NCBI GenBank assembly: GCA_948144175.1
Contig: CANXME010000869.1
Span: 1-64,000 of the forward strand
Reading direction: 5' to 3'
Origin: Closterium sp. NIES-65
Taxonomy: Eukaryota > Streptophyta > Zygnematophyceae > Desmidiales > Closteriaceae
Length of the DNA stretch: 64,000 nt
Part shown: positions 29,661-52,000 of the stretch, piece after piece
Numbering within the stretch: the stretch's first letter is position 1
Layout of the letters: every line of letters begins with the position of its first letter
The notes under the pieces: model-generated
Seen by the model: the letters and a program-made list of their open reading frames with translations, nothing else
Told to the model about the DNA's origin: nothing
Databases searched by the model: none
Made by a program: the position numbers and the translations under genes

Positions 29661-30970
29661 GGGTGGGGTGATGGAAAGCGGGAGAATGGGGCGGGGTGAT
29701 GGAAAGCGGGAGAATGGGCCGGGGTGATGGAAGGAGGGAGAATGGGGCGGGGTGATGGAAAGCGGGAGAGTGGGACGGGGTGATGGAAATCGGGAGAATG
29801 GGGAGGGGTGATGGGAGGAGGAAGAATGGGGCGGGGTGGTGGAAGGAGGGAGAATGGGGCGGGGTGATAGAAAGCGGGAGAATGGGGCGGGGAGATCGAT
29901 AGCGGGAGAATGGGGCGGGGTGATGGAAAGCGGGAGAATGGGGCGGGGTGATGGAAAGCGGGAGAATGGGGCGGGGTGATGGAAGGAGGGAGAATGGGGC
30001 GGGGTGATGGAAGGAGGGAGAATGGGGCGGGGTGATGGAAAGCGGGAGAATGGGGCGGGGTGATCGGTAGCGGGAGAATGGGGCGGGGTGATGGAAAGCG
30101 GGAGAATGGGGCAGGGTGATGGAAAGCGGGAGAATGGGCGGGGTGATGGAAAGCGGGAAAATGGGGCGGGGTGATGGAAAGCGGGAGAATGGGGCGGGGT
30201 GATGGAAAGCGGGAGAATGGGGCGGGGTGATGGAAAGCGGGAGAATGGGGCGGGGTGATGGAAAGCGGGAGTATGGGGCGGGGTGATGGAAAGTTGGAGA
30301 ATGGGGTGGGGTGATGGAAAGCGGGAGAATGGGGCGGGGTGATGGAAGGTGGGAGGATGGGGCGGGGTGATGGAAAGCGGGAGAATGGGGCGGGGTGGTG
30401 GAAAGCGGGAGAATGTGGCGGGGTGATGGAAGCCAGGGAAATGGGGCGGGGTGATGTAAGGAGGGAGAATGGGGCGGGGTGATAGAAGGAGGGAGAATGG
30501 AGCGGGGTGATGGAAGGAGGGAGAATGGGGCGGGGTGATGGAAAGCGGGAGAATGGGGCGGGGTGATGGAAAGCGGGAGAATGGGGTGGGGTGATGGAAA
30601 GCGGGAGAATGGGGCGGGGTGATGGAAAGCGGGAGAATGGGGCGGGATGATGGAAAGCGGGAGAATGGGACGGGTTGATGGAAAGCGGGAGAATAGGGCG
30701 GGGTGATGGAAAGCGGGAGAATGGGGCGCGGTGATGGAAAGCGGGAGAATGGGGCGGGGTAATGGAAAGCGGGAGAATGGGGCGGGGTGATGGAAGGGAG
30801 GAGAATGGGGCGCGGTGATGGAAAGCGGGAGAATGGGTTGGGGTTATGGAAAGCGGGAGAATAGGGCGGGATGATGGAAAGCGGGAGAATGGGCCGGGGT
30901 GATGGAAAGTGGAGGAATGGGGCGGGGTGATGGAAGGCGGGAGAATGGTGCGGGGTGATGGAAGGAGGGA

Positions 30971-33574
30971 TAGGCGCCGCTAAAGATAGGCGCCCTAGAG
31001 ATAGGCGCCCCAAGAGATAGGCGCCCATAGAGATAGGCGCCCATAGAGATAGGCGCCCAAAGAGATAGTCGCCTATCGAGATAGGCGCCCCTAGAGATTG
31101 GCGCCCATAGAGATATGCGCCCCTAGAGATAGCCGCCCCTAGAGATAGGCACCCCTAGAGATAGGCGCCCCTAGAGATAGGCGCTTCTCGGGAAAGACGC
31201 CCCTAGAGATACGTGGCCCTAGAGATTGGCGCCCTTAGAGATAGGCGCCCCTAGAGATAGGCGCCCATAGAGATAGGCCGCCGCTAGAGATAGGCGCCCC
31301 TAGAGATAGGCGCCCCTAGAGATAGGCGCCCATAGAGATAGGCGCCCATAGACATAGGCGCCCCCAGAGATAGGCACCCATAGAGATAAGCGCCCACAGA
31401 GATAGGCGCCCCATAGAGATAGGCACCCCTAGAGATAGGCGCCCATAGAGATAGGCGCCCATAGAGATAGGCGCCCATAGAGATAGGCGCCCATAGAGAT
31501 AGGCGCCCCAAGAGATAGGCGCCCCTAGAGATAGGCGCCCATAGAGATAGGCGCCCAAAGAGATAGCCGCCCATAGAGATTGGCGCCCCTAGAGATAGGC
31601 GCCCATAGAGATAGGTGCCCCTAGAGATAGCCGCCCCTAGAGATAGGCACCCCTAGAGATAGGCGCCCTTAGAGATAGGCGCCCCTGGAGATAGGCGCCC
31701 CTAGAGATAGGTGCCCCTAGAGGTAGGCGCCCCTAGAGATGGGCGACCATAGAGATAGGGGCCTCTAGAGATTGGCGCCCCTAAAGAGAGGCGCCCATAG
31801 AGATAGGCGCCCATAGAGATAGGCACCCCTAGAGATAGGCGCCCCTTGAGATAGACGCCCATAGAGATAGCCGCCCCTAGAGATAGGCGCCCATTGAGAT
31901 AGGCGCCCATAGAGATAGGTGTCCCTAGAGATTGGCGCCCATAGAGATATGCGCCCCTATAGATAGGCGCTCCTAGAGATAGGCACCCCTAGAGATAGGC
32001 GCCCCTAGAGATAGGCGCCCCTAGAGATAGGCGCCCATAGAGATAGGCGCCCATAGAGATAGGCGCCCATAGAGATAGGCGCCCATAGAGATAGGCGCCC
32101 ATAGAGATAGGCGCCCATAGAGATAGGCGCCCATAGAGATAGGCGCCCCTAGAGATAGGCGCCCCTAGAGATAGGCGCCCATAGAGATAGGCGCCCATAG
32201 AGATAGGCGCCCAAATAGATAGGCGCCCATAGAGATAGGCGCCCATAGAGATAGGCGCCCATAGAGATAGGCGCCCATAGAGATAGGTGCCCCTAGAGAT
32301 TGGCGCCCATAGAGATATGCGCCCATAGAGATAGGCGCCCACAGAGATAGGCGCCCCTAGAGATTGGCGCCCATAGAGATATGCGCCCCTAGAGATAGGC
32401 GCTCCTAGAGATAGGCGCCCCTAGAGATAGGCGCCCATAGAGATAGGCGCCCATAGAGATAGGCGCCCATAGAGATAGGCACCCATAGAGATAGGCGCCC
32501 ATAGAGATAGGCGCCCCTAGAGATAGGCGCCCATAGAGATAGGCGCCCATAGAGATATGCGCCCCTAGAGATAGGCGCCCCTAGAGATAGGCGCCCCTAG
32601 AGATAGGCGCCCCTAGAGATAGGCGCCCATAGAGATAGGCGCCACTAGAGATAGGCGCCCCTAGAGATAGGCGCCCATAGAGATAGGCGCCCATAGAGAT
32701 AGGCGCCCCTAGAGATAGGCGCCCCTAGAGATAGGCGCTCCTAGAGATAGGGGCCCCTAGAGATAGGCGCCCATAGAGATAGGCGGCCATAGAGATAGGC
32801 GCCCCTAGAGATAGGCGCCCCTAGAGATAGGCGCCCATAGAGATAGGCGCCCATAAAGAGGGGCGCCCATAGAGATAGGCGCCCATAGAGATAGGCGCCC
32901 CTAGAGATAGGCGCCCCTAGAGATAGGCGCCCATAGAGATAGGTGCCCCTAGAGATAGGCGCCCCTAGAGATAGGCGCCCCTAGAGATAGGCGCCCCTAG
33001 AGATAGGCGCCCCTAGAGATAGGCGGCCATAGAGATAGGCGCCCCTAGAGATAGGCGCCCATAGATATAGGCGCCCATAGAGATAGGCGCCCCTAGAGAT
33101 AGGCGGCCATAGAGATAGGCGCCCCTAGAGATAGGCGCCCATAGATATAGGCGCCCATAGAGATAGGCGCCCCTAGTGATAGGCGGCCATAGAGATAGGC
33201 GCCCCTAGAGATAGGCGCCCATAGAGATAGGCGCCCATAGAGATAGGCGCCCATAGAGATAGGCGGCCATAGAGAAAGGCGCCCATAGAGATAGGCGCCC
33301 CTAGAGATAGGCGGCCATATTGATAGGCGCCCCTAGAGATAGGCGCCCATAGAGATAGGCGCCCATAGAGATAGGCGCCCATAGATATAGGCGCCCCTAG
33401 AGATAGGCTCACCTAGAGATAGGCGCCCATAGAGATAGGCGCCCAGAGAGATAGGCGCCCCTAGAGATAGGCGCCCCTAGAGATAGGCGCCCATAGAGAT
33501 AGGCGCCCCTAGAGATAGGCGCCCCTAGAGATAGGCGCCCCTAGAGATAGGCGCCCCTAGAGATAGGCTCACCT
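30971..33574 (+). repeat. 16-bp satellite (Sat16B), forward block 1
   Basis: Tandem units of ATAGGCGCCCATAGAG. The main variation is A or C at one site (CCCATAG or CCCCTAG). It begins abruptly after Sat28. The first kilobase (to about 32000) is clearly more divergent than the rest, for example around 31185-31215 and 31730-31800. Each unit contains the palindrome GGCGCC. Confidence 0.96.
32502..33476 (+). repeat. Left arm of a 975-bp inverted repeat
   Basis: Reading outwards from the axis at 33622.5, the order of rare variants matches the arm at 33769-34743 in reverse complement. Examples are TAGTGATAGGCGG, TAGATATAGG, AGGTGCCCC, ATAAAGAGGGGC, GCTCCTAG, GCCACTAG and AGATATGCGC. By eye I found one mismatch (near 32753). 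The spacer is about 292 bp and is itself Sat16B. Confidence 0.9.
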
Positions 33575-36562
33575 AGGAGCGCCTTTCTCTATGGGCGCCT
33601 ATCTCTATGTGCGCCTATCTCTATGGGCGCCTATCTCTATGGGCGCCTATCTCTAGGGGCGCCTATCTCTAGGGGCGCCTATCTCTAGGGGCGCCTATCT
33701 CTATGGGCGCCTATCTCTAGGGGCGCCTATCTCTAGGGGCGCCTATCTCTATGGGCGCCTATCTCTATGGGCGCCTATCTCTAGGGGCGCCTATCTCTCT
33801 GGGCGCCTATCTCTATGGGCGCCTATCTCTAGGTGAGCCTATCTCTAGGGGCGCCTATATCTATGGGCGCCTATCTCTATGGGCGCCTATCTCTATGGGC
33901 GCCTATCTCTAGGGGCGCCTATCAATATGGCCGCCTATCTCTAGGGGCGCCTATCTCTATGGGCGCCTTTCTCTATGGCCGCCTATCTCTATGGGCGCCT
34001 ATCTCTATGGGCGCCTATCTCTATGGGCGCCTATCTCTAGGGGCGCCTATCTCTATGGCCGCCTATCACTAGGGGCGCCTATCTCTATGGGCGCCTATAT
34101 CTATGGGCGCCTATCTCTAGGGGCGCCTATCTCTATGGCCGCCTATCTCTAGGGGCGCCTATCTCTATGGGCGCCTATATCTATGGGCGCCTATCTCTAG
34201 GGGCGCCTATCTCTATGGCCGCCTATCTCTAGGGGCGCCTATCTCTAGGGGCGCCTATCTCTAGGGGCGCCTATCTCTAGGGGCGCCTATCTCTAGGGGC
34301 ACCTATCTCTATGGGCGCCTATCTCTAGGGGCGCCTATCTCTAGGGGCGCCTATCTCTATGGGCGCCTATCTCTATGGGCGCCCCTCTTTATGGGCGCCT
34401 ATCTCTATGGGCGCCTATCTCTAGGGGCGCCTATCTCTAGGGGCGCCTATCTCTATGGCCGCCTATCTCTATGGGCGCCTATCTCTAGGGGCGCCTATCT
34501 CTAGGAGCGCCTATCTCTAGGGGCGCCTATCTCTAGGGGCGCCTATCTCTATGGGCGCCTATCTCTATGGGCGCCTATCTCTAGGGGCGCCTATCTCTAG
34601 TGGCGCCTATCTCTATGGGCGCCTATCTCTAGGGGCGCCTATCTCTAGGGGCGCCTATCTCTAGGGGCGCCTATCTCTAGGGGCGCATATCTCTATGGGC
34701 GCCTATCTCTATGGGCGCCTATCTCTAGGGGCGCCTATCTCTAGGGGCGCCTATCTCTAGGGGCGCATATCTCTAGGGGCGCCTATCTCTAGGGGCGCCT
34801 ATCTCTATGGGCGCCTATCTCTATGGGCGCCTATCTCTATGGGCGCCTATCTCTATGGGCGCCTATCTCTATGGGCGCCTATCTCTATGGGCGCCTATCT
34901 CTAGGGGCGCCTATCTCTAGGGGCGCCTATCTCTAGGGGCGCCTATCTCTATGGGCGCCTATCTCTAGGGGCGCCTATCTCTATGGCCGCCTATCTCTAG
35001 GGGCGCCTATCTCTAGGGGCGCCTATCTCTAGGGGCGCCTATCTCTAGGGGCGCCTATCTCTATGGGCGCCTATCTATATAGGCGCCTATCTCTAGGGGC
35101 GCCTATCTCTAGGGGCGCCTATCTCTATGGCCGCCTATCTCTATGGGCGCCTATCTCTATGGGCGCCTATCTCTATGGGCGCCTATCTCTAGGGGCGCCT
35201 ATCTCTAGGGGCGCCTATCTCTAGGGGCGCCTATCTCTATGGGCGCCTATCTCTAGGGGCACCTATCTCTATGGGCGCCTATCTCTATGGGCGCCTATCT
35301 CTAGGGGCGCCTTTCTCTAGGAGCGCCTATCTCTATGGGCGCCTATCTCTATGGGCGCCTATCTCTAGGGGCGCCTATCTCTATGGGCGCCTATCTCTAG
35401 GGGCGCCTATCTCTATGGGCGCCTATCTCTATGGGCGCCTATCTCTATGGGCGCCTATCTCTATGGGCGCCTATCTCTAGGGGCGCCTATCTCTAGGGGC
35501 GCCTATCTCTAGGGGCGCCTATCTATGCCTCTATGGGCGCCTATCTCTATGGGCGCCTATCTCTATGGGCGCCTATCTCTATGGGCGCCTATCTCTATGG
35601 GCGCCTATCTCTATGGGCGCCTATCTCTATGGGCGCCTATCTCTATGGGCGCCTATCTCTATGGGCGCCTATCTCTAGGGGCGCCTATCTCTAGGGGCGC
35701 CTATCTCTATGGGCGCCTATCTCTATGGGCGCCTATCTCTATGGGCGCCTATCTCTAGGGCCGCCTATCTCTAGGGCCGCCTATCTCTAGGGGCGCCTAT
35801 CTCTAGGGGCGCCTATCTCTATGGGCGCCTATCTCTATGGGCGCCTATCTCTAGGTGAGCCTATCTCTAGGGGCGCCTATCTCTATGGGCGCCTATTTCT
35901 ATGGGCGCCTATCTCTAGGGGCGCCTATCTCTAGGGGCGCCTATCTCTAGGGGCGCCTATCTCTATGGGCGCCTATCTCTATGGGCGCCTATCTCTAGGG
36001 CCGCCTATCTCTAGGGCCGCCTATCTCTAGGGGCGCCTATCTCTAGGGGCGCCTATCTCTATGGGCGCCTATCTCTATGGGCGCCTATCTCTAGGTGAGC
36101 CTATCTCTAGGGGCGCCTATCTCTATGGGCGCCTATTTCTATGGGCGCCTATCTCTAGGGGCGCCTATCTCTAGGGGCGCCTATCTCTAGGGGCGCCTAT
36201 CTCTATGGGCGCCTATCTCTATGGGCGCCTATCTCTAGGGGCGCCTATCTCTAGGGGCGCCTATCTCTAGGGGCGCCTATCTCTAGGGGCGCATATCTCT
36301 ATGGGAGCTTATCTCTAGGGGCGCCTATCTCTATGGGCGCCTATCTCTAAGGGCGCCTATCTCTATGGGCGCCTATCTCTATGGGTGCCTATCTCTATGG
36401 GCGCCTATCTCTATGGCCGCCTATCTCTAGGGCCGCCTATCTCTAGGGCCGCCTATCTCTAGGGGCGCCTATCTCTAGGGGCGCCTATCTCTATGGGCGC
36501 CTATCTCTATGGGCGCCTATCTCTAGGTGAGCCTATCTCTAGGGGCGCCTATCTCTATGGGC
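33575..36562 (-). repeat. Sat16B, inverted block 1
   Basis: The same satellite in reverse orientation (CTCTATGGGCGCCTAT on top). The left switch point is centred on CCTAGG at 33572-33577 inside a distinctive GGCTCACCTAGGAGC. The right switch point is a seamless palindrome centred at 36562/36563 within GGGCGCCC. A 239-bp run of variants is duplicated at about 35760-36000 and 36000-36240. Confidence 0.95.
33769..34743 (-). repeat. Right arm of the 975-bp inverted repeat
   Basis: Mirror image of 32502-33476 (coordinates sum to 67245 at every landmark checked). Beyond 34743 the A/C pattern of the monomers stops matching, which sets the outer limit. The inner limit is set by a mismatch at 33477/33768. 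Confidence 0.9.
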
Positions 36563-36699
36563 GCCCATAGAGATAGGCGCCCATAGAGATAGGCACCCCT
36601 AGAGACAGGCGCCCATAGAGATAGGCGCCCATAGAGATAGGCGCCCATAGAGATAGGCGCCCATAGAGATAGGCGCCCATAGAGATAGGCGGCCATAGA

Positions 36700-39600
36700 G
36701 ATAGGCGCCCATAGAGATAGGCACCCATAGAGATAGGCGCCCATAGAGATAGGCGCCCTTAGAGATAGGCGCCCATAGAGATAGGCGCCCCTAGAGATAG
36801 GCGCCACTAGAGATAGGCGCCTCTAGAGATAGGCGCCCATAGAGATAGGCACCCCTAGAGACAGGCGCCCATAGAGATAGGCGCCCATAGAGATAGGCGC
36901 ACATAGAGATAGGCGCCCATAGAGATAGGCGCCCATAGAGATAGGCGCCCATAGAGATAGGCGCCCATAGAGATAGGCACCCATAGAGATAGGCGCCCAT
37001 AGAGATAAGCGCCCCTAGAGATAGGCGCCCCTAGAGATAGGCGCCCATAGAGATAGGCGCCCCTAGAGATAGGCGCCACTAGAGATAGGCGCCCCTAGAG
37101 ATAGGCGCCCATAGAGATAGGCACCCCTAGAGACAGGCGCCCATAGCGATAGGCGCCCATAGAGATAGGCGCCCATAGAGATAGGCGCCCATAGAGATAG
37201 GCACCCATGGAGATAGGCGCCCATAGAGATAGGCGCCCATAGAGATAGGCGCCCATAGAGATAGGCGCCCCTAGAGATACGCGCCCATAGAGATAGGCGC
37301 CCATAGAGATAGGCGCCTATAGAGATAGGTGCCCCTAGAGATTGGCGCCCATAGAGATATGCGCCCCTAGAGATAGGCGCCCCTAGAGATAGGTGCCCCT
37401 AGAGATAGGCGCCCATAGAGATAGGCGCCCCTAGAGATAGGCGCCACTAGAGATAGGCGCCCCTAGAGATAGGCGTCCATAGAGATAGGAACCCCTAGAG
37501 ATAGGCGCCCATAGAGATAGGCGCCCATAGGGATAGGCGCCCAAAGAGATAGGCGCCCATAGAGATAGGCGCCCATAGAGATAGGCGCCCATAGAGATAG
37601 GCGCCCATAGAGATAGGCGCCCATAGAGATAGGCGCCCATAGAGATAGGCGCCCATAGAGATAGGCGCCCCTAGAGATAGGCGCCCATAGAGATATGCGC
37701 CCCTAGAGATAGGCGCCCCTAGAGATAGGCGCCCCTAGAGATAGGCGCCCCTAGAGATAGGCGCCCATAGAGATAGGCGCCCATAGAGAAAGGCGCCCAA
37801 ATAGATAGGCGCCCATAGAGATAGGCGCCCATAGAGATAGGCGCCCATAGAGATAGGCGCCCATAGAGATAGGTGCCCCTAGAGATTGGCGCCCATAGAG
37901 ATATGCGCCCATAGAGATAGGCGCCCAAATAGATAGGCGCCCAAAGAGATAGGCGCCCATAGAGATAGGCGCCCATAGAGATAGGCGCCCATAGAGATAG
38001 GTGCCCCTAGAGATTGGCGACCATAGAGATATGCGCCCCTAGAGATAGGCGCTCATAGAGATAGGCGCCCCTAGAGATAGGCGCCCCTAGAGATAGGCGC
38101 CCATAGAATTAGGCGCCCCTAGAGATAGGCACCACTAGAGATAGGCGCCCCTGGAGATAGGCGCCCATAGAGATAGGCACCCCTAGAGATAGGCACCGAT
38201 AGAGATAGGCGCCCATACAGATAGGCGCCCATAGAGATAGGCGCCCATAGAGATAGCCGCCCCTAGAGATAGGCGCCCATAGAGATAGGCGCCCATAGAG
38301 ATAGGCGCCCATAGAGATAGGCACCCATAGAGATAGGCGCCCATAGAGATAGGCGCCCTTAGAGATAGGCGCCCATAGAGATAGGCGCCCCTAGAGATAG
38401 GCGCCACTAGAGATAGGCGCCTCTAGAGATAGGCGCCCATAGAGATAGGCACCCCTAGAGACAGGCGCCCATAGAGATAGGCGCCCATAGAGATAGGCGG
38501 ACATAGAGATAGGCGCCCATAGAGATAGGCGCCCATAGAGATAGGCGCCCATAGAGATAGGCGCCCATAGAGATAGGCACCCATAGAGATAGGTGCCCAT
38601 AGAGATAGGCGCCCCTAGAGATAGGCGCCCCTAGAGATAGGCGCCCATAGAGATAGGCGCCCCTAGAGATAGGCGCCACTAGAGATAGGCGCCCCTAGAG
38701 ATAGGCGCCCATAGAGATAGGCACCCCTAGAGACAGGCGCCCATAGCGATAGGCGCCCATAGAGATAGGCGCCCATAGAGATAGGCGCCCATAGAGATAG
38801 GCACCCATGGAGATAGGCGCCCATAGAGATAGGCGCCCATAGAGATAGGCGCCCATAGAGATAGGCGCCCCTAGAGATACGCGCCCATAGAGATAGGCGC
38901 CCATAGAGATAGGCGCCTATAGAGATAGGTGCCCCTAGAGATTGGCGCCCATAGAGATATGCGCCCCTAGAGATAGGCGCCCCTAGAGATAGGTGCCCCT
39001 AGAGATAGGCGCCCATAGAGATAGGCGCCCCTAGAGATAGGCGCCACTAGAGATAGGCGCCCCTAGAGATAGGCGTCCATAGAGATAGGAACCCCTAGAG
39101 ATAGGCGCCCATAGAGATAGGCGCCCATAGGGATAGGCGCCCAAAGAGATAGGCGCCCATAGAGATAGGCGCCCATAGAGATAGGCGCCCATAGAGATAG
39201 GCGCCCATAGAGATAGGCGCCCATAGAGATAGGCGCCCATAGAGATAGGCGCCCATAGAGATAGGCGCCCCTAGAGATAGGCGCCCATAGAGATATGCGC
39301 CCCTAGAGATAGGCGCCCCTAGAGATAGGCGCCCCTAGAGATAGGCGCCCCTAGAGATAGGCGCCCATAGAGATAGGCGCCCATAGAGATAGGCGCCCCT
39401 AGAGATAGGAGCCCCTAGAGATAGGCGCCCATAGAGATAGGCGCCCATAGAGAAAGGCGCCCAAATAGATAGGCGCCCATAGAGATAGGCGCCCATAGAG
39501 ATAGGCGCCTATAGAGATAGGCGCCCATAGAGATAGGTGCCCCTAGAGATTGGCGCCCATAGAGATATGCGCCCATAGAGATAGGCGCCCAAATAGATAG

Positions 39601-39963
39601 GCGCCCAAAGAGATAGGCGCCCATAGAGATAGGCGCCCATAGAGATAGGCGCCCATAGAGATAGGTGCCCCTAGAGATTGGCGCCCATAGAGATATGCGC
39701 CCCTAGAGATAGGCGCTCATAGAGATAGGCGCCCCTAGAGATAGGCGCCCCTAGAGATAGGCGCCCATAGAATTAGGCGCCCCTAGAGATAGGCGCCACT
39801 AGAGATAGGCGCCCCTGGAGATAGGCGCCCATAGAGATAGGCACCCCTAGAGATAGGCACCGATAGAGATAGGCGCCCATACAGATAGGCGCCCATAGAG
39901 ATAGGCGCCCATAGAGATAGCCGCCCCTAGAGATAGGCGCCCATAGAGATAGGCGCCCATAGA
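36700..39963 (+). repeat. Sat16B tandem higher-order repeat, 1600 bp (100 units)
   Basis: Landmarks recur at exactly 1600 bp over much of the block: 36791/38391, 36855/38455, 37095/38695 and 37431/39031. The monomer A/C pattern is essentially identical between copies. Further along the offset becomes 1664 bp (37751/39415, 38051/39715), meaning four extra monomers were gained in copy 2 or lost in copy 1. A related segment at 40087-40359 sits 1696 bp beyond its counterpart. Confidence 0.9.
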
Positions 39964-40427
39964 GATAGGTGCCCTTAGAGATTGGCGCCCATAGAGATAT
40001 GCGCCCCTAGAGATAGGCGCTCCTAGAGATAGGTGCCCCTAGAGATAGGCTCCCCTAGAGATAGGCGCCCATAGAGATAGGCGCCCCTAGAGATAGGCGC
40101 CACTAGAGATAGGCGCCCCTAGAGATAGGCGCCCATAGGGATAGGCACCCCTAGAGACAGGCGCCCATAGAGATAGGCGCCCATAGAGACAGGCGCCCAT
40201 AAAGATAGGCGCCCATAGAGATAGGCGCCCATAGAGATAGGCGCCCATAGAGATAGGCGCCCATAGAGATAGGCACCCATAGAGATAGGCGCCCATAGAG
40301 ATAGGCGCCCCTAGAGATAGGCGCCCATAGAGATAGGTGCCCCTAGAGATAGGCGCCACTAGAGATAGGCGCCCCTAGAGATAGGCGCCCATAGAGATAG
40401 GCACCCCTAGAGACAGGCGCCCATAGA

Positions 40428-40432
40428 GATAG
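40428..40432. repeat. Target-site duplication, left copy (GATAG)
   Basis: GATAG directly precedes the left LTR and also directly follows the right LTR. A length of 5 bp is usual for Ty1/copia integrases. GATAG is part of every satellite unit. The right side resumes at GATAGGCGCCC, in phase with the left flank once one copy is removed. Confidence 0.92.
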
Positions 40433-40563
40433 TGTGAAACTAACTGAACAGGAATGAATTGACTAAGTCAGAGTTGGGTACAAATACAACCCTAGCAAAC
40501 TGTACCCCATATGTGCTACCCCACTATAGCCTACAAACATGCATCAGCTATAATAATCTGACA
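40433..40563 (-). repeat. Copia 3' LTR (left in window)
   Basis: 131 bp, TG...CA ends. It is identical to the right LTR except for one G/A difference near the TGTGAAAC end. An LTR of 131 bp is short for copia. No strong TATA box was seen. Confidence 0.95.
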
Positions 40564-40575
40564 CACCCCCATAGG
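40564..40575 (-). promoter_or_regulatory. Polypurine tract of the copia element
   Basis: On the minus strand a short G-run (CTATGGGGGTG) lies immediately upstream of the 3' LTR, the expected place for the plus-strand primer. Short but well placed. Confidence 0.65.
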
Positions 40576-40767
40576 CAAAGTGGGGGAGAACAAGGGGTCA
40601 CAAGACCAGTCAAGCAAAGCAAAGCAAGCTCAGGGTGAATCACAAAGTCACCACACAGTCCGAGCACAAGAGCAAGGCCAGAGGCCAGTTCACATGCAAG
40701 AGTACAGACATATATATAAAACTAGACAAGCAAGAGCAGGTATATATATGTCAAAGTACAAGTAAAG

Positions 40768-43131
40768 TCAAGAAGAGAGCAAGTGAGGCAAGACAGGTAC
40801 AAGACCCAGCTGGGTACAAAAGCGCTGATGGTCGCAAGGCGCAAGTGCCTTGGTGAACACATCAGCATTGTTGGCCTCAGAGGCCACGTAAGCAAGTCGC
40901 AACTGACCACGCTGCTGCAGCTCACGAGCAAGGAAGTAGCGGAGAGCAATGTGCTTCGTTCTGTGCTCCAAGCGCTGCTCTCGACACAAGGCCAACATGG
41001 CCTTGTTGTCTACGTACAGCACTGGAGGAGAACGAGGCAGCTCTCCAAGGTCAGTCAGCAGGTAGGTGAGCCAGCGAAGCTCCTGTGCAGCCATGGCCCC
41101 GGCGTAGATCTCAGCCTCACAACTGGAGCCGAGAACCGAAGACGAGCGAGTAGACCGCCACGAGACAGAGCCGGAACCAAGGCTGAAGGTGTAACCCTGT
41201 GACGACCGCTGCGTAGCCTGGTCGTCAGCCCAAGAAGCGTCTGCGTGCCCAGTAAGGACCACTGGACTCCGCCCTCCAAGCACTAGCCCCATGCCCGACG
41301 TACTGCACAGGTAGCGCAATACCCTCTTCGCTGCAGCCATGTGCTCTGGTCGGTGTCTCCCAGGAGCAACATAGCGTGCAAGGATGCTCAGAGGGTATGC
41401 AAGGTCAGGTCGTGTGCAGGTCATCAGGTACATGAGGCAGCCAACAAGCTCTGCATACGGACCACTCGACTCTACGGACTCATCCGAAGGCAGAGCTGAG
41501 AGTGAGTGGCGAGTAGGCAGAGGAGTGGCCTGAGGCGAGGAGTACGTGAAGCCGAAGCGCTGAAGGACCTGCTGCACCATGTGTGACTGAGTCAGGGTAA
41601 TGGTGCGGCGTGCTCTGTCCCGAGTGATCTGCAAGCCAAGGTAGCTGCGCAGTTCACCCAGGTCTGTGCACGTGTGTCTCTTCAGCAGCTCGGACTTCAC
41701 GTAGGCGAGTCCAGCAGTGTCCGCTGTGGCAAAGACCAAGTCGTCGACGTACACGAGGATGTAGAACGGCGGCAGGGAAGTGTCGGTGCGAAGAAACAGC
41801 GACGGGTCAGCAGTAGAAGGAGCAAACCCAAGAGCCGCAAGCGTAGTCCTCAGTGTGTCGTGCCACTCACGCGGTGCCTGGCGGAGACCGTAGACTGGCC
41901 GTCGGAGGCTCCACTGGGTGCCAGGAGGGAAAGTCCCAGTGAAGCCAGGCGGACGGCGCAGCAAGATCTCCTCGTGCAGGCTACCCTGCAGGAACGCAGT
42001 GCTGAAGTCGAGAGAGTGAAGCTCGTAGTCGCGCTGAGCGGCAATGTGCAGCAGCACCCGAAGAGTGGTCATCTTCGGGGTGGGAGAGAAGGTCTGAAAG
42101 TAGTCAACTCCCTGCCGCTGACTGAAGCCACGAGCCACGTAACGCGCCTTGAAGACAGGCGGCGAGCCCGGCGGCCGCTTCACCCTGAAGATCCACATGC
42201 CACTGACGATGTTCGCCCCAGGAGGGGGAACCGCGTCAACGTAGGTGCCTGTGGACTTCCAGGAAGCCATCTCTGCATCCATAGCTGCCTGCCACTGAGA
42301 GGAGTAGGGACCCTCTACGGCCTCCGCGTAAGAACGCGGAGTCGGGATGTCTAGTGCATCCGGGTCTCCCTCAGGGGCTAGCAGTACAGACGCGAGACGA
42401 GGTGAAGCAGCGGCTAGGCACTGGAACTCCTCCTGCCTGTCCTCTAGGACGTCCGTGCCAAGGGCACACTCACCCCCGACGGACGGAGGACAGGCGGACT
42501 CAGACTCAGCGACAAGACGAGCAGCGTAGTCTAGACGACAGCGCGCAGCAAAGTCGACAAGCTCAGTGACAAGGGCAGACGCAGCAGACGACTCGAAGGA
42601 AGGGTCAGTGACAGCAGTAGCAAGGAGACGCGTGACAGTAGGACTGGCAGCACGAAGAGAGTCCGACTCCGGGTCGGCAAGAGCAGGAAGAGAGGAAGCA
42701 GGAGGAGAAGGCAAAGGGGCACGCAGAGGAGCAGTGGACGGACGCAGTGACATCCGGTGCGTGCCAGGGACAGGAGGAGGACGCTGACGCGACCCGCGAC
42801 CACTAGCGCGCTCAGTACGAACAGGCGACGCAGGACGAGACGCAGGCTCACGACGCTCAGTAAGGCCTCCAGTCGGACCAGCGTAGGGAGAAGGAGCATG
42901 CAAAGGGGAGGCAGGCTCTAGCTGTGGCTGTGACCTGACGGCAGAGTCAGCATCAGCAGGCGGGGCAGGGACAGCGCCAGAGACAAAGTCAAAGAGAGAG
43001 ACCTCATCTACCGCATCACACAGTAAGTACAGCTGCAGGTCCTCGATCCAGACGGCAAAGTCAATGGCCCTCCCCTCAGCGTCAAAAGTGAGAACATTGG
43101 GGGTGGCCATGGCAGCAGCTGAAAGTCTCAC
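40768..43131 (-). CDS. Copia polyprotein segment: gag-like N-terminus, reverse transcriptase, RNase H
   Basis: A single open frame of 787 codons. The natural start is probably Met8 (MATPNVLTFDAEGRAIDF), which resembles the gag start of related algal copia elements as I remember them. Residues about 50-260 are Pro/Ser/Arg-rich and of low complexity. Reverse transcriptase of the copia type (RVT_2) covers about 296-540, with the first catalytic Asp near 375 (HSLDFSTAFLQGSLHEE) and the YVDD box at 461-464. Copia RNase H follows at about 624-770, with acidic residues D631, E674, D708 and D757 in the expected motifs (HADASW, CEAE, YVDNKA, NADVFTKAL). Protease, zinc knuckle and integrase were not recognised, so this is treated as the coding part of an incomplete element. 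It would act in cytoplasmic virus-like particles in a complete relative. It is not a host gene. Confidence 0.93.
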   Translation of the reverse strand: MRLSAAAMATPNVLTFDAEGRAIDFAVWIEDLQLYLLCDAVDEVSLFDFVSGAVPAPPADADSAVRSQPQLEPASPLHAPSPYAGPTGGLTERREPASRPASPVRTERASGRGSRQRPPPVPGTHRMSLRPSTAPLRAPLPSPPASSLPALADPESDSLRAASPTVTRLLATAVTDPSFESSAASALVTELVDFAARCRLDYAARLVAESESACPPSVGGECALGTDVLEDRQEEFQCLAAASPRLASVLLAPEGDPDALDIPTPRSYAEAVEGPYSSQWQAAMDAEMASWKSTGTYVDAVPPPGANIVSGMWIFRVKRPPGSPPVFKARYVARGFSQRQGVDYFQTFSPTPKMTTLRVLLHIAAQRDYELHSLDFSTAFLQGSLHEEILLRRPPGFTGTFPPGTQWSLRRPVYGLRQAPREWHDTLRTTLAALGFAPSTADPSLFLRTDTSLPPFYILVYVDDLVFATADTAGLAYVKSELLKRHTCTDLGELRSYLGLQITRDRARRTITLTQSHMVQQVLQRFGFTYSSPQATPLPTRHSLSALPSDESVESSGPYAELVGCLMYLMTCTRPDLAYPLSILARYVAPGRHRPEHMAAAKRVLRYLCSTSGMGLVLGGRSPVVLTGHADASWADDQATQRSSQGYTFSLGSGSVSWRSTRSSSVLGSSCEAEIYAGAMAAQELRWLTYLLTDLGELPRSPPVLYVDNKAMLALCREQRLEHRTKHIALRYFLARELQQRGQLRLAYVASEANNADVFTKALAPCDHQRFCTQLGLVPVLPHLLSS

Positions 43132-44166
43132 CGGGATGGGAGAGTCGGGTAGGTCAGCAGCAGGCGGCTCGGGCTGCTCGGGCGGCTCGGGCGGCTCGGG
43201 CGGCTCGGGCGTCTCGGGTACCGGGCGGCTCGGCTGCTGCTGGGCGGCTCGGCTGCTGCTGGGCGGTTCGGCTGCTGCTGGGCGGCTGGGCTGCTGCTGG
43301 GCGGCTCGGCTGCCGCTGGGCGGCTCGGCTGCGGCTGGGCGGCTCGGCTGCTGCTGGGCGGCTCGGCGGGGCCGTCAGGGTGCAGCTGCGGGGCCGGGAC
43401 AGGGGACGGTGGGGCCGTCAGGGTGCAGCGGCGGGGCCGGGACAGGGGACGGCGGAGCCGTCAGGTGGCGGGCCAGCAGGCGAGGTGGCGAGCCGTCAGG
43501 TGAGGCGGCGGGGCCGTCAGGTCAGGTGGCGGGCCAGCGGGTGAGGCGGCGGGCCGTCAGGTGAGGTGGCGGGCCAGCAGGTTAGGCGGCGGGCCGTCAG
43601 GTGAGGCGGCGGGGCCGTCAGGTCAGGTGGCGGGCCAGTAGGTGAGGCGGCGGGCCGTCAGGTGAGGCGGCGGGGCCGTCATGTAAGGTGGCGGCGGGCC
43701 GTCAGGTGAGGCGGCGGGGCCGTCAGGTAAGGTGGCGGGCCAGCAGGTGAGACGGTGGGCCGTCAGGTGAGGCGGGGGGGCCGTCTGGTGAGGTGGCGGG
43801 CCAGAAGTCGAGGCGGCGGGCCGTCAGGTGAGGCGGCGGCCGTCAGGTAAGGCGGCTGCGGGGCCGACAGAGGTGCAGCGGGGGGGGGGGGCCTGCTGCA
43901 GCGACGAAGAGGCCGCGCGGCCGTCTTGAGGGCGGCGCGGCGCGGCAGAGCCGAGAGGGCGGCGCGGCGCGGCTGTAAGGGCCGCGCGAAGTGGGGCCTG
44001 AACCGCGCGCGCGAAAAAAAATGAGTCGCGCGCGCGACTCTCGGTGCGCCACAAGGGCAGCTCGACGCGCACTAGGGGGAGCGCGCCTCGGGGAGAATAG
44101 GGCGCGCTCCGGGCAGGAAAAAAAAAAAAATCGTGGGTGGGCCCAAAGAACGGTCCTTAGGAGGGA
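43132..44166 (-). other. GC-rich repetitive 5' leader of the copia element
   Basis: About 1 kb between the primer binding site and the coding frame with no supported gene. From about 43149 to 43375 it holds short repeats built on GGCTCGGGC and CTGCTGCTGGGCGGCTCGG. From about 43380 to 43860 it holds some 20 imperfect copies of GGCGGGCCGTCAGGTGAGGC-like units. It ends with a GC-palindrome and an A-run (44118-44130). Open frames here on either strand are repeat by-products. Confidence 0.75.
44023..44040. other. 18-bp perfect palindrome with (CG)n core in the copia leader
   Basis: GAGTCGCGCGCGCGACTC is its own reverse complement. A further CGCGCGCGCG lies at 44004-44013, separated by an A-run, so either a local hairpin or a stem between the two CG tracts is possible. 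Alternating CG can adopt Z-DNA. No function is known. Confidence 0.7.
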
Positions 44167-44180
44167 CCCGCTCTATACCA
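44167..44180 (-). promoter_or_regulatory. Primer binding site of the copia element
   Basis: The minus strand directly after the 5' LTR reads TGGTATAGAGCGGG, a close match to the TGGTAT...AGAGC primer site complementary to plant initiator-Met tRNA that most plant copia elements use. It abuts the LTR with no spacer. Confidence 0.85.
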
Positions 44181-44311
44181 TGTGAAACTAACTGAACAAG
44201 AATGAATTGACTAAGTCAGAGTTGGGTACAAATACAACCCTAGCAAACTGTACCCCATATGTGCTACCCCACTATAGCCTACAAACATGCATCAGCTATA
44301 ATAATCTGACA
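44181..44311 (-). repeat. Copia 5' LTR (right in window)
   Basis: 131 bp, matching 40433-40563 at all but one position. It carries the element's promoter in relatives of this family; no specific promoter motif was clear to me here. Confidence 0.95.
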
Positions 44312-44316
44312 GATAG
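44312..44316. repeat. Target-site duplication, right copy (GATAG)
   Basis: Partner of 40428-40432. The satellite continues without phase loss after it. Confidence 0.92.
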
Positions 44317-45577
44317 GCGCCCATAGAGATAGGCGCCCATAGAGATAGGCGCCCATAGAGATAGGCGCCCATAGAGATAGGCGCCCATAGAGATAGGCGC
44401 CCATAGAGATAGGAGCCCATAGAGATAGGCACCCATAGAGATAGGCGCCCATAGAGATAGGCGCCCCAAGAGATAGGCGCCCCTAGAGATAGGCGCCCAT
44501 AGAGATAGGCGCCCCTAGAGATAGGCGCCACTAGAGATAGGCGCCCCTAGAGATAGGCGCCCATAGAGATAGGCACCCCTAGAGACAGGCGCCCATAGCG
44601 ATAGGCGCCCATAGAGATAGGCGCCCATAGAGATAGGCGCCCATAGAGATAGGCACCCATAGAGATAGGCGCCCATAGAGATAGGCGCCCATAGAGATAG
44701 GCGCCCCTAGAGATAGGCGCCCATAGAGATAGGCGCCCATAGAGATAGGCGCCTATAGAGATAGGTGCCCCTAGAGATTGGCGCCCATAGAGATATGCGC
44801 CCCTAGAGATAGGCGCTCCTAGAGATAGGCGCCCCTAGAGATAGGTGCCCCTAGAGATAGGCGCCCATAGAGATAGGCGCCCCTAGAGATAGGCACCACA
44901 AGAGATAGGCGCCCCTAGAGATAGGCGTCCATAGAGATAGGAACCCCTAGAGATAGACGCCCATAGAGATAGGCGCCCATAGGGATAGGCGCCCATAGAG
45001 ATAGGCGCCCATAGAGATAGGCGCCCATAGAGATAGGCGCCCATAGAGATAGGCGCCCATAGAGATAGGCGCCCATAGAGATAGGCGCCCATAGAGATAG
45101 GCGCCCCTAGAGATAGGCGCCCATAGAGATATGCGCCCCTAGAGATAGGCGCCCCTAGAGATAGGCGCCCCTAGAGATAGGCGCCCCTAGAGATAGGCGC
45201 CCATAGAGATAGGCGCCACTAGAGATAGGCGCCCCTAGAGATAGGCGCCCATAGAGATAGGCGCCCATAGAGATAGGCGCCCCTAGAGATAGGCGCCCCT
45301 AGAGATAGGCGCTCCTAGAGATAGGCGCCCCTAGAGTTAGGCGCCCATAGAGATAGGCGGCCATAGAGATAGGCGCCCCTAGAGATAGGCGCCCCTAGAG
45401 ATAGGCGCCCATAGAGATAGGCGCCCATAAAGAGGGGCGCCCATAGAGATAGGCGCCCATAGAGATAGGCGCCCCTAGAGATAGGCGCCCCTAGAGATAG
45501 GCGCCCATAGAGATAGGTGCCCCTAGAGATAGGCGCCCCTAGAGATAGGCACCCCTAGAGATAGGCGCCCCTAGAGA

Positions 45578-45607
45578 TAGGGGCGCCTATCTAGATAGGC
45601 GCCCCTA
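45578..45607. repeat. 30-bp perfect palindrome (single-monomer inversion), copy 1
   Basis: Arms TAGGGGCGCCTATCT and its reverse complement meet with no spacer, as if one monomer had flipped inside the array. The same structure occurs at 47212-47241 and 48632-48661. Confidence 0.9.
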
Positions 45608-47211
45608 GAGATAGGCGCCCCTAGAGATAGGCGGCCATAGAGATAGGCGCCCCTAGAGATAGGCGCCCATAGATATAGGCGCCCATAGAGATAGGCGCCC
45701 CTAGAGATAGGCGGCCATAGAGATAGGCGCCCCTAGAGATAGGCGCCCATAGATATAGGCGCCCATAGAGATAGGCGCCCCTAGAGATAGGCGGCCATAG
45801 AGATAGGCGCCCCTAGAGATAGGCGCCCATAGAGATAGGCGCCCATAGAGATAGGCGCCCATAGAGATAGGCGCCCATAGGGATAGGCGCCCATAGAGAT
45901 AGGCGCCCATAGAGATAGGCGCCCATAGAGATAGGCGCCCATAGAGATAGGCGCCCATAGAGATAGGCGCCCATAGAGATAGGCGCCCATAGAGATAGGC
46001 GCCCATAGAGATAGGCGCCCATAGAGATAGGCGCCCATAGAGATAGGCACCCATAGAGATAGGCGCCCATAGAGATAGGCGCCCCAAGAGATAGGCGCCC
46101 CTAGAGATAGGCGCCCATAGAGATAGGCGCCCCTAGAGATAGGCGCCACTAGAGATAGGCGCCCCTAGAGATAGGCGCCCATAGAGATAGGCACCCCTAG
46201 AGACAGGCGCCCATAGCGATAGGCGCCCATAGAGATAGGCGCCCATAGAGATAGGCGCCCATAGAGATAGGCACCCATAGAGATAGGCGCCCATAGAGAT
46301 AGGCGCCCATAGAGATAGGCGCCCATAGAGATAGGCGCCCCTAGAGATAGGCGCCCATAGGGATAGGCGCCCATAGAGATAGGCGCCTATAGAGATAGGT
46401 GCCCCTAGAGATTGGCGCCCATAGAGATCTGCGCCCCTAGAGATAGGCGCTCCTAGAGATAGGCGCCCCTAGAGATAGGTGCCCCTAGAGATAGGCGCCC
46501 ATAGAGATAGGCGCCCCTAGAGATAGGCACCACAAGAGATAGGCGCCCCTAGAGATAGGCGTCCATAGAGATAGGAACCCCTAGAGATAGGCGCCCATAG
46601 AGATAGGCGCCCATAGGGATAGGCGCCCATAGAGATAGGCGCCCATAGAGATAGGCGCCCATAGAGATAGGCGCCCATAGAGATAGGCGCCCATAGAGAT
46701 AGGCGCCCATAGAGATAGGCGCCCATAGAGATAGGCGCCCCTAGAGATAGGCGCCCATAGAGATATGCGCCCCTAGAGATAGGCGCCCCTAGAGATAGGC
46801 GCCCCTAGAGATAGGCGCCCCTAGAGATAGGCGCCCATCGAGATAGGCGCCACTAGAGATAGGCGCCCCTAGAGATAGGCGCCCATAGAGATAGGCGCCC
46901 ATAGAGATAGGCGCCCCTAGAGATAGGCGCCCCTAGAGATAGGCGCTCCTAGAGATAGGCGCCCCTAGAGATAGGCGCCCATAGAGATAGGCGGCCATAG
47001 AGATAGGCGCCCCTAGAGATAGGCGCCCCTAGAGATAGGCGCCCATAGAGATAGGCGCCCATAAAGAGGGGCGCCCATAGAGATAGGCGCCCATAGACAT
47101 AGGCGCCCCTAGAGATAGGCGCCCCTAGAGATAGGCGCCCATAGAGATAGGTGCCCCTAGAGATAGGCGCCCCTAGAGATAGGCGCCCCTAGAGATAGGC
47201 GCCCCTAGAGA

Positions 47212-47241
47212 TAGGGGCGCCTATCTAGATAGGCGCCCCTA
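47212..47241. repeat. 30-bp perfect palindrome (single-monomer inversion), copy 2
   Basis: Same arms as the copy centred at 45592.5, exactly 1634 bp away, so it was carried along in the higher-order duplication. Confidence 0.9.
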
Positions 47242-47802
47242 GAGATAGGCGCCCATAGAGATAGGCGCCCATAGAGATAGGCGCCCCTAGAGATAGGCGC
47301 CCATAGAGATAGGCGCCCCTAGAGATAGGCGCCCATAGAGATAGGCGCCTATAGAGATAGGCGCTCCTAGAGAAAGGCGCCCCTAGAGATAGGCGCCCAT
47401 AGAGATAGGCGCCCATAGAGATAGGCGCCCCTAGAGATAGGCGCCCATAGAGATAGGCGCCCCTAGAGATAGGCGCCCCTAGAGATAGGCGCCCCTAGAG
47501 ATAGGGGCCCATAGAGATAGGCGCCCATAGAGATAGGCGCCCATAGAGATAGGCGGCCATAGAGATAGGCGCCCCTAGAGATAGGCGCCCCTAGAGATAG
47601 GCGCCTATATAGATAGGCGCCCATAGAGATAGGCGCCCCTAGAGATAGGCGCCCCTAGAGATAGGCGCCCCTAGAGATAGGCGCCCCTAGAGATAGGCGG
47701 CCATAGAGATAGGCGCCCCTAGAGATAGGCGCCCATAGAGATAGGCGCCCCTAGAGATAGGCGCCCCTAGAGATAGGCGCCCCTAGAGATAGGCGCCCAT
47801 AG

Positions 47803-48460
47803 AGATAGGCGCCCATAGAGATAGGCGCCCATAGAGATAGGCGCCCCTAGAGATAGGCGCCCCTAGAGATAGGCGCCCATAGAGATAGGCGCCCCTAGAG
47901 ATAGGCGCCCCTAGAGATAGGCGCCCCTAGAGATAGGCGCCCATAGAGATAGGCGCCCATAGAGATAGGCGCACATAGAGATAGGCGCCCATAGAGAAAG
48001 GCGCTCCTAGGTGAGCCTATCTCTAGGGGTGCCTATCTCTAGGGGCGCCTATCTCTAGGGGCGCCTATCTCTAGGGGCGCCTATCTCTATGGGCGCCTAT
48101 CTCTAGCGGCGCCTATCTCTAGGGGCGCCTATCTCTCTGGGCGCCTATCTCTATGGGCGCCTATCTCTAGGTGAGCCTATCTCTAGGGGCGCCTATTTCT
48201 ATGGGCGCCTATCTATATAGGCGCCTATCTCTAGAGGCGCCTATATCTATGGGCGCCTATCTCTATGGGCGCCTATCTCTATGGGCGCCTATATCTAGGG
48301 GCGCCTATCAATTTGGCCGCCTATCTCTAGGGGCGCCTATCTCTATGGGCGCCTATCTCTATGGCCGCCTATCTCTATGGGCGCCTATCTCTATGGGCGC
48401 CTATCTCTATGGGCGCCTATCTCTAGGGGCGCCTATCTCTATGGCCGCCTATCTCTAGGG
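47803..48460 (-). repeat. Inverted copy of the 33.1-33.8 kb switch junction
   Basis: The sequence across the orientation switch at 48008 is the reverse complement of the sequence across the switch at 33574 (GGCTCACCTAGGAGC at 33566-33580 against 48003-48017; landmark sums 81583). It includes the TTTCTCTATG and ATGTGCGCC units on one side and the CAGAGAG and second GGCTCACC units on the other. A 48-bp (three-monomer) length difference appears near 48300. Confidence 0.88.
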
Positions 48461-48631
48461 GCGCCTATCTCTATGGGCGCCTATATCTATGGGCGCCTAT
48501 CTCTAGGGGCGCCTATCTCTATGGCCGCCTATCTCTAGGGGCTCCTATCTCTATGGGCGCCTATATCTATGGGCGCCTATCTCTAGGGGCGCCTATCTCT
48601 ATGGCCGCCTATCTCTAGGGGCGCCTATCTC

Positions 48632-48661
48632 TAGGGGCGCCTATCTAGATAGGCGCCCCTA
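48632..48661. repeat. 30-bp perfect palindrome, copy 3, within inverted block 2
   Basis: Same 15-bp arms (TAGGGGCGCCTATCT) as the copies at 45578 and 47212, now inside reverse-oriented units. Confidence 0.88.
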
Positions 48662-49079
48662 TCTCTAGGGGCGCCTATCTCTAGGGGCGCCTATCTCTAG
48701 GGGCGCCTATCTCTAGGGGCACCTATCTCTAGGGGCGCCTATCTCTAGGGGCGCCTATCTCTAGGGGCGCCTATCTCTATGGGCGCCTATCTCTATGGGC
48801 GCCTATCTCTAGGGGCGCCTATCTCTATGGGCGCCTATCTCTATGGGCGCCTATCTCTATGGGCGCCTATCTCTATGGGCGCCTATCTCTATGGGCGCCT
48901 ATCTCTAGGGGCGCCTATCTCTATGGGCGCCTATCTCTATGGCCGCCTATCTCTATGGGCGCCTATCTCTATGGGCGCCTATCTCTATGGGCGCCTATCT
49001 CTAGGGGCGCCTATCTCTAGGGGCGCCTATCTCTAGGGGCGCCTATCTCTATGGGCGCCTATCTCTAGGGGCGCCTATC

Positions 49080-52000
49080 TCTATGGGCGCCTATCTCTAT
49101 GGGCGCCTATCTCTAGGGGCGCCTTTCTCTAGGAGCGCCTATCTCTATGGGCGCCTATCTCTATGGGCGCCTATCTCTAGGGGCGCCTATCTCTATGGGC
49201 GCCTATCTCTAGGGGCGCCTATCTCTATGGGCGCCTATCTCTATGGGCGCCTATCTCTATGGGCGCCTATCTCTATCGGCGCCTATCTCTAGGGGCGCCT
49301 ATCTCTATGGGCGCCTATCTCTATGGGCGCCTATCTCTATGGGCGCCTATCTCTATGGGCGCCTATCTCTATGGGCGCCTATCTCTAGGGGCGCCTATCT
49401 CTAGGGGTGCCTATCTCTAGGGGCGCCTATCTCTAGGGGCGCCTATCTCTAGGTGCGCCTATCTCTAGGGGCGCCTATCTCTAGGGGTGCCTATCTCTAG
49501 GGGCGCCTATCTCTATGGGCGCCTATCTCTATGGGCGCCTATATCTATGGGCGCCTATCTCTAGGGGCGCCTATCTCTAGGGGCGCCTATCTCTAGGGGC
49601 GCCTATCTCTATGGGCGCCTATCTCTATGGCCGCCTATCTCTATGGGCGCCTATCTCTATGGGCGCCTATCTCTAGGGGCGGCTATCTCTAGGGGCGCCT
49701 ATCTCTAGGGAACCTATTTCTAGGGGCGGCTATCTCTAGGGGCGCCTATCTCTATGGGCGCCTATCTCTAGGGGCGCCTGTCTCTATGGGCGCCTATCTC
49801 TAGGGGCGCCTATCTCTATTGGCGCCTATCTCTATGGGCGCCTATCTCTAGGGGCGCCTATCTCTAGGGGCGCCTATCTCTAGGGGCGCCTATCTCTAGG
49901 GCCGCCTATCTCTAGGGGCGCCTATCTCTATGGGCGCCTATCTCTATGGGCGACTATCTCTATGGGCGCCTATCTCTAGGGGCGCCTATCTCTATGGGCG
50001 CCTATCTCTAGGGGCGCCTATCTCTAGGGGCGCCTATCTCTATGGGCGCCTATCTCTATGGGCGCCTATCTCTATGGGCGCCTATCTCTAGGGGCGCCTA
50101 TCTCTAGGGGCGCCTATCTCTAGGGGCGCCTATCTCTATGGGCGCCTATCTCTAGGGGCGCCTATCTCTATGGCCGCCTATCTCTAGGGGCGCCTATCTC
50201 TAGGGGCGCCTATCTCTAGGGGCGCCTATCTCTAGGGGCGCCTATCTCTATGGGCGCCTATCTATATAGGCGCCTATCTCTAGGGGCGCCTATCTCTAGG
50301 GGCGCCTATCTCTATGGCCGCCTATCTCTATGGGCGCCTATCTCTATGGGCGCCTATCTCTATGGGCCCCTATCTCTAGGGGCGCCTATCTCTAGGGGCG
50401 CCTATCTCTAGGGGCGCCTATCTCTATGGGCGCCTATCTCTAGGGCCGCCTATCTCTAGGGGCGCCTATCTCTATGGGCGCCTATCTCTATGGGCGACTA
50501 TCTCTATGGGCGCCTATCTCTAGGGGCGCCTATCTCTATGGGCGCCTATCTCTAGGGGCGCCTATCTCTAGGGGCGCCTATCTCTATGGGCGCCTATCTC
50601 TATGGGCGCCTATCTCTATGGGCGCCTATCTCTAGGGGCGCCTATCTCTAGGGGCGCCTATCTCTAGGGGCGCCTATCTCTATGGGCGCCTATCTCTAGG
50701 GGCGCCTATCTCTATGGCCGCCTATCTCTAGGGGCGCCTATCTCTAGGGGCGCCTATCTCTAGGGGCGCCTATCTCTAGGGGCGCCTATCTCTATGGGCG
50801 CCTATCTATATAGGCGCCTATCTCTAGGGGCGCCTATCTCTAGGGGCGCCTATCTCTATGGCCGCCTATCTCTATGGGCGCCTATCTCTATGGGCGCCTA
50901 TCTCTATGGGCCCCTATCTCTAGGGGCGCCTATCTCTAGGGGCGCCTATCTCTAGGGGCGCCTATCTCTATGGGCGCCTATCTCTAGGGGCGCCTATCTC
51001 TATGGGCGCCTATCTCTATGGGCGCCTATCTCTAGGGGCGCCTTTCTCTAGGAGCGCCTATCTCTATAGGCGCCTATCTCTATGGGCGCCTATCTCTAGG
51101 GCCGCCTATCTCTAGGGGCGCCTATCTCTAGGGGCGCCTATCTCTATGGGCGCCTATCTCTAGGGGCGCCTATCTCTATGGGCGCCTATCTCTATGGGCG
51201 CCTATCTCTAGGGGCGCCTTTCTCTAGGAGCGCCTATCTCTATAGGCGCCTATCTCTATGGGCGCCTATCTCTAGGGCCGCCTATCTCTAGGGGCGCCTA
51301 TCTCTATGGGCGCCTATCTCTATGGGCGACTATCTCTATGGGCGCCTATCTCTAGGGGCGCCTATCTCTATGGGCGCCTATCTCTAGGGGCGCCTATCTC
51401 TAGGGGCGCCTATCTCTATGGGCGCCTATCTCTATGGGCGCCTATCTCTATGGGCGCCTATCTCTAGGGGCGCCTATCTCTAGGGGCGCCTATCTCTAGG
51501 GGCGCCTATCTCTATGGGCGCCTATCTCTAGGGGCGCCTATCTCTATGGCCGCCTATCTCTAGGGGCGCCTATCTCTAGGGGCGCCTATCTCTAGGGGCG
51601 CCTATCTCTAGGGGCGCCTATCTCTATGGGCGCCTATCTATATAGGCGCCTATCTCTAGGGGCGCCTATCTCTAGGGGCGCCTATCTCTATGGCCGCCTA
51701 TCTCTATGGGCGCCTATCTCTATGGGCGCCTATCTCTATGGGCCCCTATCTCTAGGGGCGCCTATCTCTAGGGGCGCCTATCTCTAGGGGCGCCTATCTC
51801 TATGGGCGCCTATCTCTAGGGGCGCCTATCTCTATGGGCGCCTATCTCTATGGGCGCCTATCTCTAGGGGCGCCTTTCTCTAGGAGCGCCTATCTCTATA
51901 GGCGCCTATCTCTATGGGCGCCTATCTCTAGGGGCGCCTATCTCTATGGGCGCCTATCTCTAGGGGCGCCTATCTCTATGGGCGCCTATATCTATGGGCG

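Follow-up and report, generated by a model that had tools for sequence, protein, structure and literature searches.

Palindromes on sex chromosomes consist of near-identical arms around a spacer, with gene conversion between the arms. At the scale of satellite arrays, the excerpted report on TmSat1 and TmSat2 of Tribolium madens describes macro-dyad symmetries, i.e., inverted satellite subarrays with common inversion sites; TmSat1 has two predominant inversion types in thousands of copies, and an ancestral ~110-bp element underlies the units (PMC13081366). Human fold-back inverted duplications, in the excerpts of the source, are large and often lie beside terminal deletions; the spacers that were sequenced measure 766-70,466 bp, and 13/21 joins carry inverted microhomology of 2-8 bp (PMC3907307).

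Here we analyzed a window comprising the first 64,000 bases of the 67,920-base contig C868, from an assembly of 874 Mb in 2,400 contigs of Closterium sp. NIES-65. A 16-bp satellite, GATAGGCGCCCMTAGA, spans the contig from 30969 to its end (67920) and changes orientation at 33574, 36565, 48008, and 54080. Kilobase-scale blocks therefore alternate, five of them in C868, as in an inverted-subarray (macro-dyad) satellite. Orientation changes were also found in C1410 and in eight of the nine other contigs fetched, and the first 10 kb of C1529 held no orientation change of the satellite. Matching arrays lie near a contig end in C947 and within the contig in C2188. The remainder of the window (1-30970) is a 28-bp satellite, in opposite orientations flanking a different 16-bp array, GGGTTGAACACACGGT, at 9653-11540; this region is another large dyad, the center of which matches itself inverted (74% over 2.6 kb). 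The blocks and turning points of the 16-bp satellite are as follows.

30969-33573, forward block
33576-36564, reverse block
36565-48007, forward block
48010-54080, reverse block
54081-67920, forward block
33566-33583, + strand, left switch (L) with junction GGCTCACCTAGGAGCGCC; forward units end and reverse units begin at CTAG 33573-33576
36560-36565, GGCGCC of the reverse-to-forward switch between L and R
48000-48017, - strand, right switch (R) with the same 18 bases; dyad CTAG 48007-48010
54076-54081, GGCGCC of the reverse-to-forward switch beyond R

The junction and tract shared by the two switches

The 18-base junction GGCTCACCTAGGAGCGCC is asymmetric and had three exact matches in the 874-Mb assembly (L, R, and R again on C1410), while its reversed control word had none. 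It lies on opposite strands at L and R. The original prediction that the forward-to-reverse switches near 33574 and 48008 are reverse-complement copies of one another holds. Over 340 bp, L and R are 98.8% identical when one is inverted and 90.0% identical directly; an inversion-site sequence common to copies was likewise seen elsewhere, in 73 direct same-contig pairs of switches with at least 97% identity.

Plain BLAST of the two junctions returned many registers at 89-94% in both orientations and was uninformative. It was replaced by a comparison at the level of units, in which the arrays were cut into units, each arm was read outward from its switch, and unit matches were scored by a scheme of our own. 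The left arm of L was thus set against the right arm of R (side A), and the right arm of L against the left arm of R (side B).

32874-33573, + strand, side A at L; 44 units, 36 identical to R 48010-48791
48010-48791, - strand, side A at R; five extra units in four gaps
33576-33779, - strand, side B core at L; units 0-12, 13/13 identical to R
33780-34883, - strand, 69-unit insertion in side B of L; 60 units are an inverted copy of L's own left arm
34884-35443, - strand, side B resumption at L; 35 units, 32 identical to R units 13-47
47244-48007, + strand, side B at R; units 0-47
47210-47227, + strand, hinge unit with TCTAGA dyad, left border of the R tract; other copies at 45576-45593 and, inverted, at 48646-48663

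On side A, the eight aligned units that are not identical each have a one-base difference, and the five extra units of R comprise 2 + 1 units in two neighboring gaps, the hinge unit, and one further unit. The neighboring gaps are the three-monomer indel that had been predicted between the switches. On side B, identity is complete up to the insertion in L, after which the order resumes (32/35 units identical). Both sides together gave 92 aligned units, 81 of them identical, with 11 base differences over a shared tract of ~1.5 kb (~1,470 bases). Alignment of the L flanks to the reverse complement of R, the check that had been proposed, thus recovered a common order of variants and not just a short core; the flanking variant units are common to the two switches as reverse complements, on both sides, as had been expected. 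Rare variants also fall in step within this order, including GATAGGCGCCCAGAGA and GATAGGCGCACATAGA, which occur 7 and 8 times, respectively, among the 11,791 units of the fetched stretches.

Anchored at the junctions, the two inverted pairings scored 51.5 and 25.6; 200 shuffles of each pairing peaked at 13.7 and 16.8, none of them attaining either score. The direct pairings scored 0.0 (left-left) and 17.5 (right-right); the latter exceeds its own shuffle maximum of 3.4 because the left arm of L recurs, inverted, within its right arm. As a further control, 384 pairs of 48-unit windows were drawn at random from C868; their mean score was 1.7 and three pairs reached at least 40 (maximum 91.1), which indicates that other duplicated stretches exist in this array. 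The pairing of L and R at the switches is inverted and is not due to chance.

At the threshold used, parents of either arm were found in no fetched contig other than C868 and C1410. Tandem duplication of the 14.4-kb unit as a whole was also rejected: at the threshold used, neither the reverse-to-forward ends (36565 and 54080) nor the outer blocks matched one another in the order of their units. Nor did the loss of 69 units from R in a single deletion suffice as the sole difference on side B, with 6 to 13 of 30 units matching when R units from 48 on were set against L units from 117 on in seven registers.

The palindrome around L and the versions on other contigs

Of the 69-unit insertion, 60 units belong to a palindrome around L, in which units 7-66 of the left arm equal units 13-72 of the right arm in 59/60 cases, or all but one base in 960. 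These inverted arms enclose a single-copy spacer, the arrangement of a fold-back inverted duplication.

32506-33465, + strand, left arm of the L palindrome; 59/60 units identical to the right arm
33780-34739, - strand, right arm of the L palindrome; the spacer, 33466-33779, is 314 bp

When the two arms of each switch were compared with each other, anchored at the switch, L scored 74.9 and R scored 0.0; R is therefore not the center of a palindrome. Base-level palindromy within 340 bp was 0.906 for L and 0.924 for R, a test that misses the L palindrome because its arms are six units out of step, beyond the shift allowed. The palindrome (0.96 kb) would either have formed after the L/R pair or have been homogenized since, given that its arms differ at 1/960 bases and the two switches at 11/~1,470 bases, with four gaps and the insertion besides.

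Two other contigs bear on the locus. C1410, 34,816 bp long, follows the window colinearly and in unchanged orientation from 33776 to 57 kb or beyond; it carries the copia element and does not reach L. Against window positions 44312-48305, it has one substitution in 3,985 aligned bases and otherwise 1-bp gaps; other tracts have 10 mismatches/3,530 and 27/5,859, and the left end has 57/2,791. The idea that C1410 is a true second allele was set aside because the differences are mostly 1-bp gaps. We took the contig to be R and the middle in a second assembled version, perhaps a redundant one of the same allele rather than a separate allele. Up to 31913, C48 follows the window through the boundary between the 28-bp and 16-bp satellites, with 11 substitutions in 1,547 gap-free bases. 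Past that point it continues like the window from 37100 onward, with 114 of 136 aligned units identical and 7 gaps, and one stretch is missing from it:

31914-37099, 5.2-kb stretch holding L, missing from C48

From this comparison, C48 would represent either an allele or a sister locus, and L may have been either gained or lost. The same satellite boundary occurs on two further contigs, C205 (93%) and C1650 (85%). The C48 version without L, the 0.96-kb palindrome, and the 69-unit insertion were all overlooked in the original prediction.

A transposable element lies between the two switches:

40433-44311, - strand, Copia-type retrotransposon (RVT_2), 3,879 bp; GATAG at both flanks

Its long terminal repeats are 131 bp with one difference between them, and the matching place of C48 is an empty site. 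The element had been proposed as one of the later changes. It is real, but it lies outside the shared tract and is uninformative on the differences between L and R. A search of its 787-aa frame against Pfam at E 0.001 gave reverse transcriptase only, and GC-rich tandem repeats occupy about 43.2-43.9 kb within it.

Among other observations on the assembly, rbcL is present in both orientations within single contigs (C40, C75, C97, C162, C824, C1848, and C2174). The copies on C40 lie at 50341-51267 (+) and 51476-52402 (-). Such arrangements may reflect concatemers of the plastid genome or fold-back joins made in assembly. The presence of rbcL, TTTAGGG-type repeats at three switches, and 9chz as the best-scoring solved chain all fit a green photosynthetic eukaryote.

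Where orientation switches fall

A census covered 252 kb, including the window and C1410, in stretches picked for matching the L switch or its surroundings and not at random. It listed 110 orientation changes, 63 of which had at least four events on each side. These 63 larger switches, which include three rows from the redundant C1410 and copies that are not independent, were classed with our own regular expressions (up to 2 mismatches) as GGCGCC in phase (39), CTAG (4), telomere-repeat filler (3), and other (17). Classing by longest perfect palindrome was abandoned because it put in-phase A/C switches in the wrong class. The four CTAG switches are L, R, R again on C1410, and one in C318. Fifteen of the 17 "other" switches come from a higher-order repeat of C1508, so dyads do not explain all switches. 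Counted by distinct local sequence (24, with L and R as two), there were 13 GGCGCC, 3 CTAG, 3 telomere, and 5 other switches.

Perfect dyads of at least 4 bases are limited, in the two commonest tandem units, to GGCGCC (with GCGC inside) and CTAG; GGCGCC is found in nearly every copy, and CTAG in every C-type unit. On a naive chance of 1 in 16, 13/24 switches at GGCGCC would have a probability of 3e-10, and on 1 in 8 a probability of 1e-6, figures that serve as a guide only because the copies are related. Across the assembly, the exact forward-to-reverse word at GGCGCC, GAGATAGGCGCCTATCTC, occurs at 49 places on 7 contigs (reversed control, 0), and a search for the CTAG switch between consensus units gave 33 matches, all with one mismatch, versus 17 for the reversed control. 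The words at the joins, CTAG at L/R and GGCGCC at 39/63, may represent inverted microhomology, but in a satellite they recur along the array, so that the parent strands are indistinguishable. The concentration at GGCGCC and CTAG fits what template switching at short dyads predicts and would be compatible with such an origin.

Copies of a switch on one contig are nearly always direct: of the 74 same-contig pairs with at least 97% identity over 340 bp, L/R alone is inverted and the other 73 are direct. Another three inverted pairs, at 96% identity, link 4.400-4.409 and 4.442 Mb of C947. Short flips recur as direct higher-order repeats, with a two-unit flip in C947 and one of about 0.5 kb in C1508. 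Additionally, three forward-to-reverse switches hold telomere-type (TTTAGGG-type) repeats between the orientations (C2309 at ~61.78 and ~63.01 kb; C947 at ~4.4427 Mb), two of them with two GGGTTTA copies and one with seven CCCTAAA. The satellite block of C318 is flanked by long hexamer arrays at 78001-80200 and 83201-88000 (ACGTCC, CGTGGA, and ACGTGG types).

Origin of the inverted pair and comparison with known systems

Our preferred account, to which we assign a probability of roughly 0.62, is that the switch arose once and was then placed a second time in the array, inverted, by template switches at dyads. The GATAGGCGCCCMTAGA array would have changed strand once, at the CTAG dyad of one unit, after which the switch with about 0.7 kb on each side would have come to lie again, inverted, in the same array. 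Both steps would have been replication template switches of the fold-back type, aided by the dyads of the unit (GGCGCC, and CTAG in C-type units). As the divergence values suggest, a copy of the left arm of L would later have been added to L in inverted orientation, 13 units beyond the switch; gene conversion between the arms of the palindrome would give the same appearance. No cellular function is required for the switches or the palindrome. A single origin of the switch, followed by copying or flipping in inverted form, is supported because the junction is found only at the L/R locus and the order of flanking units is reversed on both sides. The inverted correspondence ends past 44 units on side A and 48 units on side B, which counts against this account.

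The alternative that comes nearest, which we consider unlikely, is a direct duplication followed by an in-place flip of the center of one copy (about 1.4 kb at R) through flanking inverted repeats. Such repeats are at hand, in that the left border of the R tract consists of units A43-A36 and the hinge unit, and the right border of the same units inverted, but they would have to pre-exist. The outer left flanks also agree directly (32426-32986 versus 46634-47194, 30/36 units identical), a match of L's outer left-arm units to the left side of R that fits an in-place flip equally well; it may, however, stem from a higher-order unit repeated in 44.3-47.3 kb, the copies of which are identical in 56/67 units. 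The predominance of direct copies among switches elsewhere (73/74) speaks for a flip, and the right flanks speak against it, having no direct correspondence except for higher-order units found on both arms. The alignments taken by themselves would accommodate either inverted copying or a flip in place.

That L is an assembly artefact, either a mis-join or a fold-back chimera, seems more improbable still. L occurs on C868 only, C48 lacks the region, C1410 begins at 33776, adjoining the inner edge of the right palindrome arm, and the oppositely oriented rbcL copies ~209 bp apart on C40 may themselves be fold-back joins. A simple fold-back read would not be expected, however, to bear single-base variants of its own and to lack five units of R, as L does; its spacer also holds the switch core, and its right arm reverts to an R-like order rather than continuing reversed. 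An independent origin of L and R at the same kind of unit could appeal to the CTAG in every C-type unit and to the frequency of switches in this satellite. We regard it as very improbable, in view of an asymmetric 18-base junction found at this locus only and of matches (13/13 and 36/44 units) that shuffles do not attain.

The original prediction of a switch formed once and then copied in inverted form holds up as to the single origin and the inverted copying, on the evidence of the locus-specific junction and the reversed unit order. Its other branch, inversion of the 14.4-kb stretch through exchange between the two copies, is possible but unsupported: such exchange has no positive evidence, and an inversion alone cannot create an inverted pair. 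From 33776, the orientation between L and R on C1410, a perhaps redundant contig that does not cover L, is the same as in the window.

Returning to the account by template switching, a broader version, which we put forward tentatively and with less than even confidence, is that each 16-bp unit is a possible hinge. Switches would favor GGCGCC and CTAG and spread via higher-order repeats, and a switch with its arms could be inverted or copied again, so that a self-folding satellite and large palindromes would follow from the sequence of the unit. Strand changes and palindromes in satellite arrays are hard to read since their parts are alike, and here rare variant units reveal a partial history, which would run from one switch to one inverted copy and then to a palindrome around one copy. 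The link between the unit dyad and the turning point makes the idea of template switching countable across whole assemblies.

A literature search judged by titles, which included ten letters of the unit and which papers without the word satellite may escape, gave no paper on this satellite; the one paper found to contain the ten letters is unrelated by its title. Inverted satellite subarrays are already known, and the features that look less usual here are the occurrence of a locus-specific switch as an inverted pair and the concentration of switches at a dyad of the 16-bp unit. Like sex-chromosome palindromes, L has near-identical arms and a spacer, and conversion and recent formation look alike in it. 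As in human fold-backs, in the excerpts of the report, inverted arms flank a short non-duplicated spacer, and the few bases of inverted microhomology at many of the human joins may have a counterpart in CTAG (4 bp) here (PMC3907307). Unlike them, L has arms of about 1 kb inside a satellite, which runs on beyond the arm, and its spacer is 314 bp. With TmSat1 and TmSat2, as the excerpted report presents them, the Closterium satellite has in common kilobase-long subarrays of opposite orientation, a shared inversion-site sequence, and short inverted repeats within the units (PMC13081366). It differs in its 16-bp unit and in the coexistence of many kinds of switch, 39/63 of them at GGCGCC, among which the L/R type was found at one locus only, in two inverted copies.
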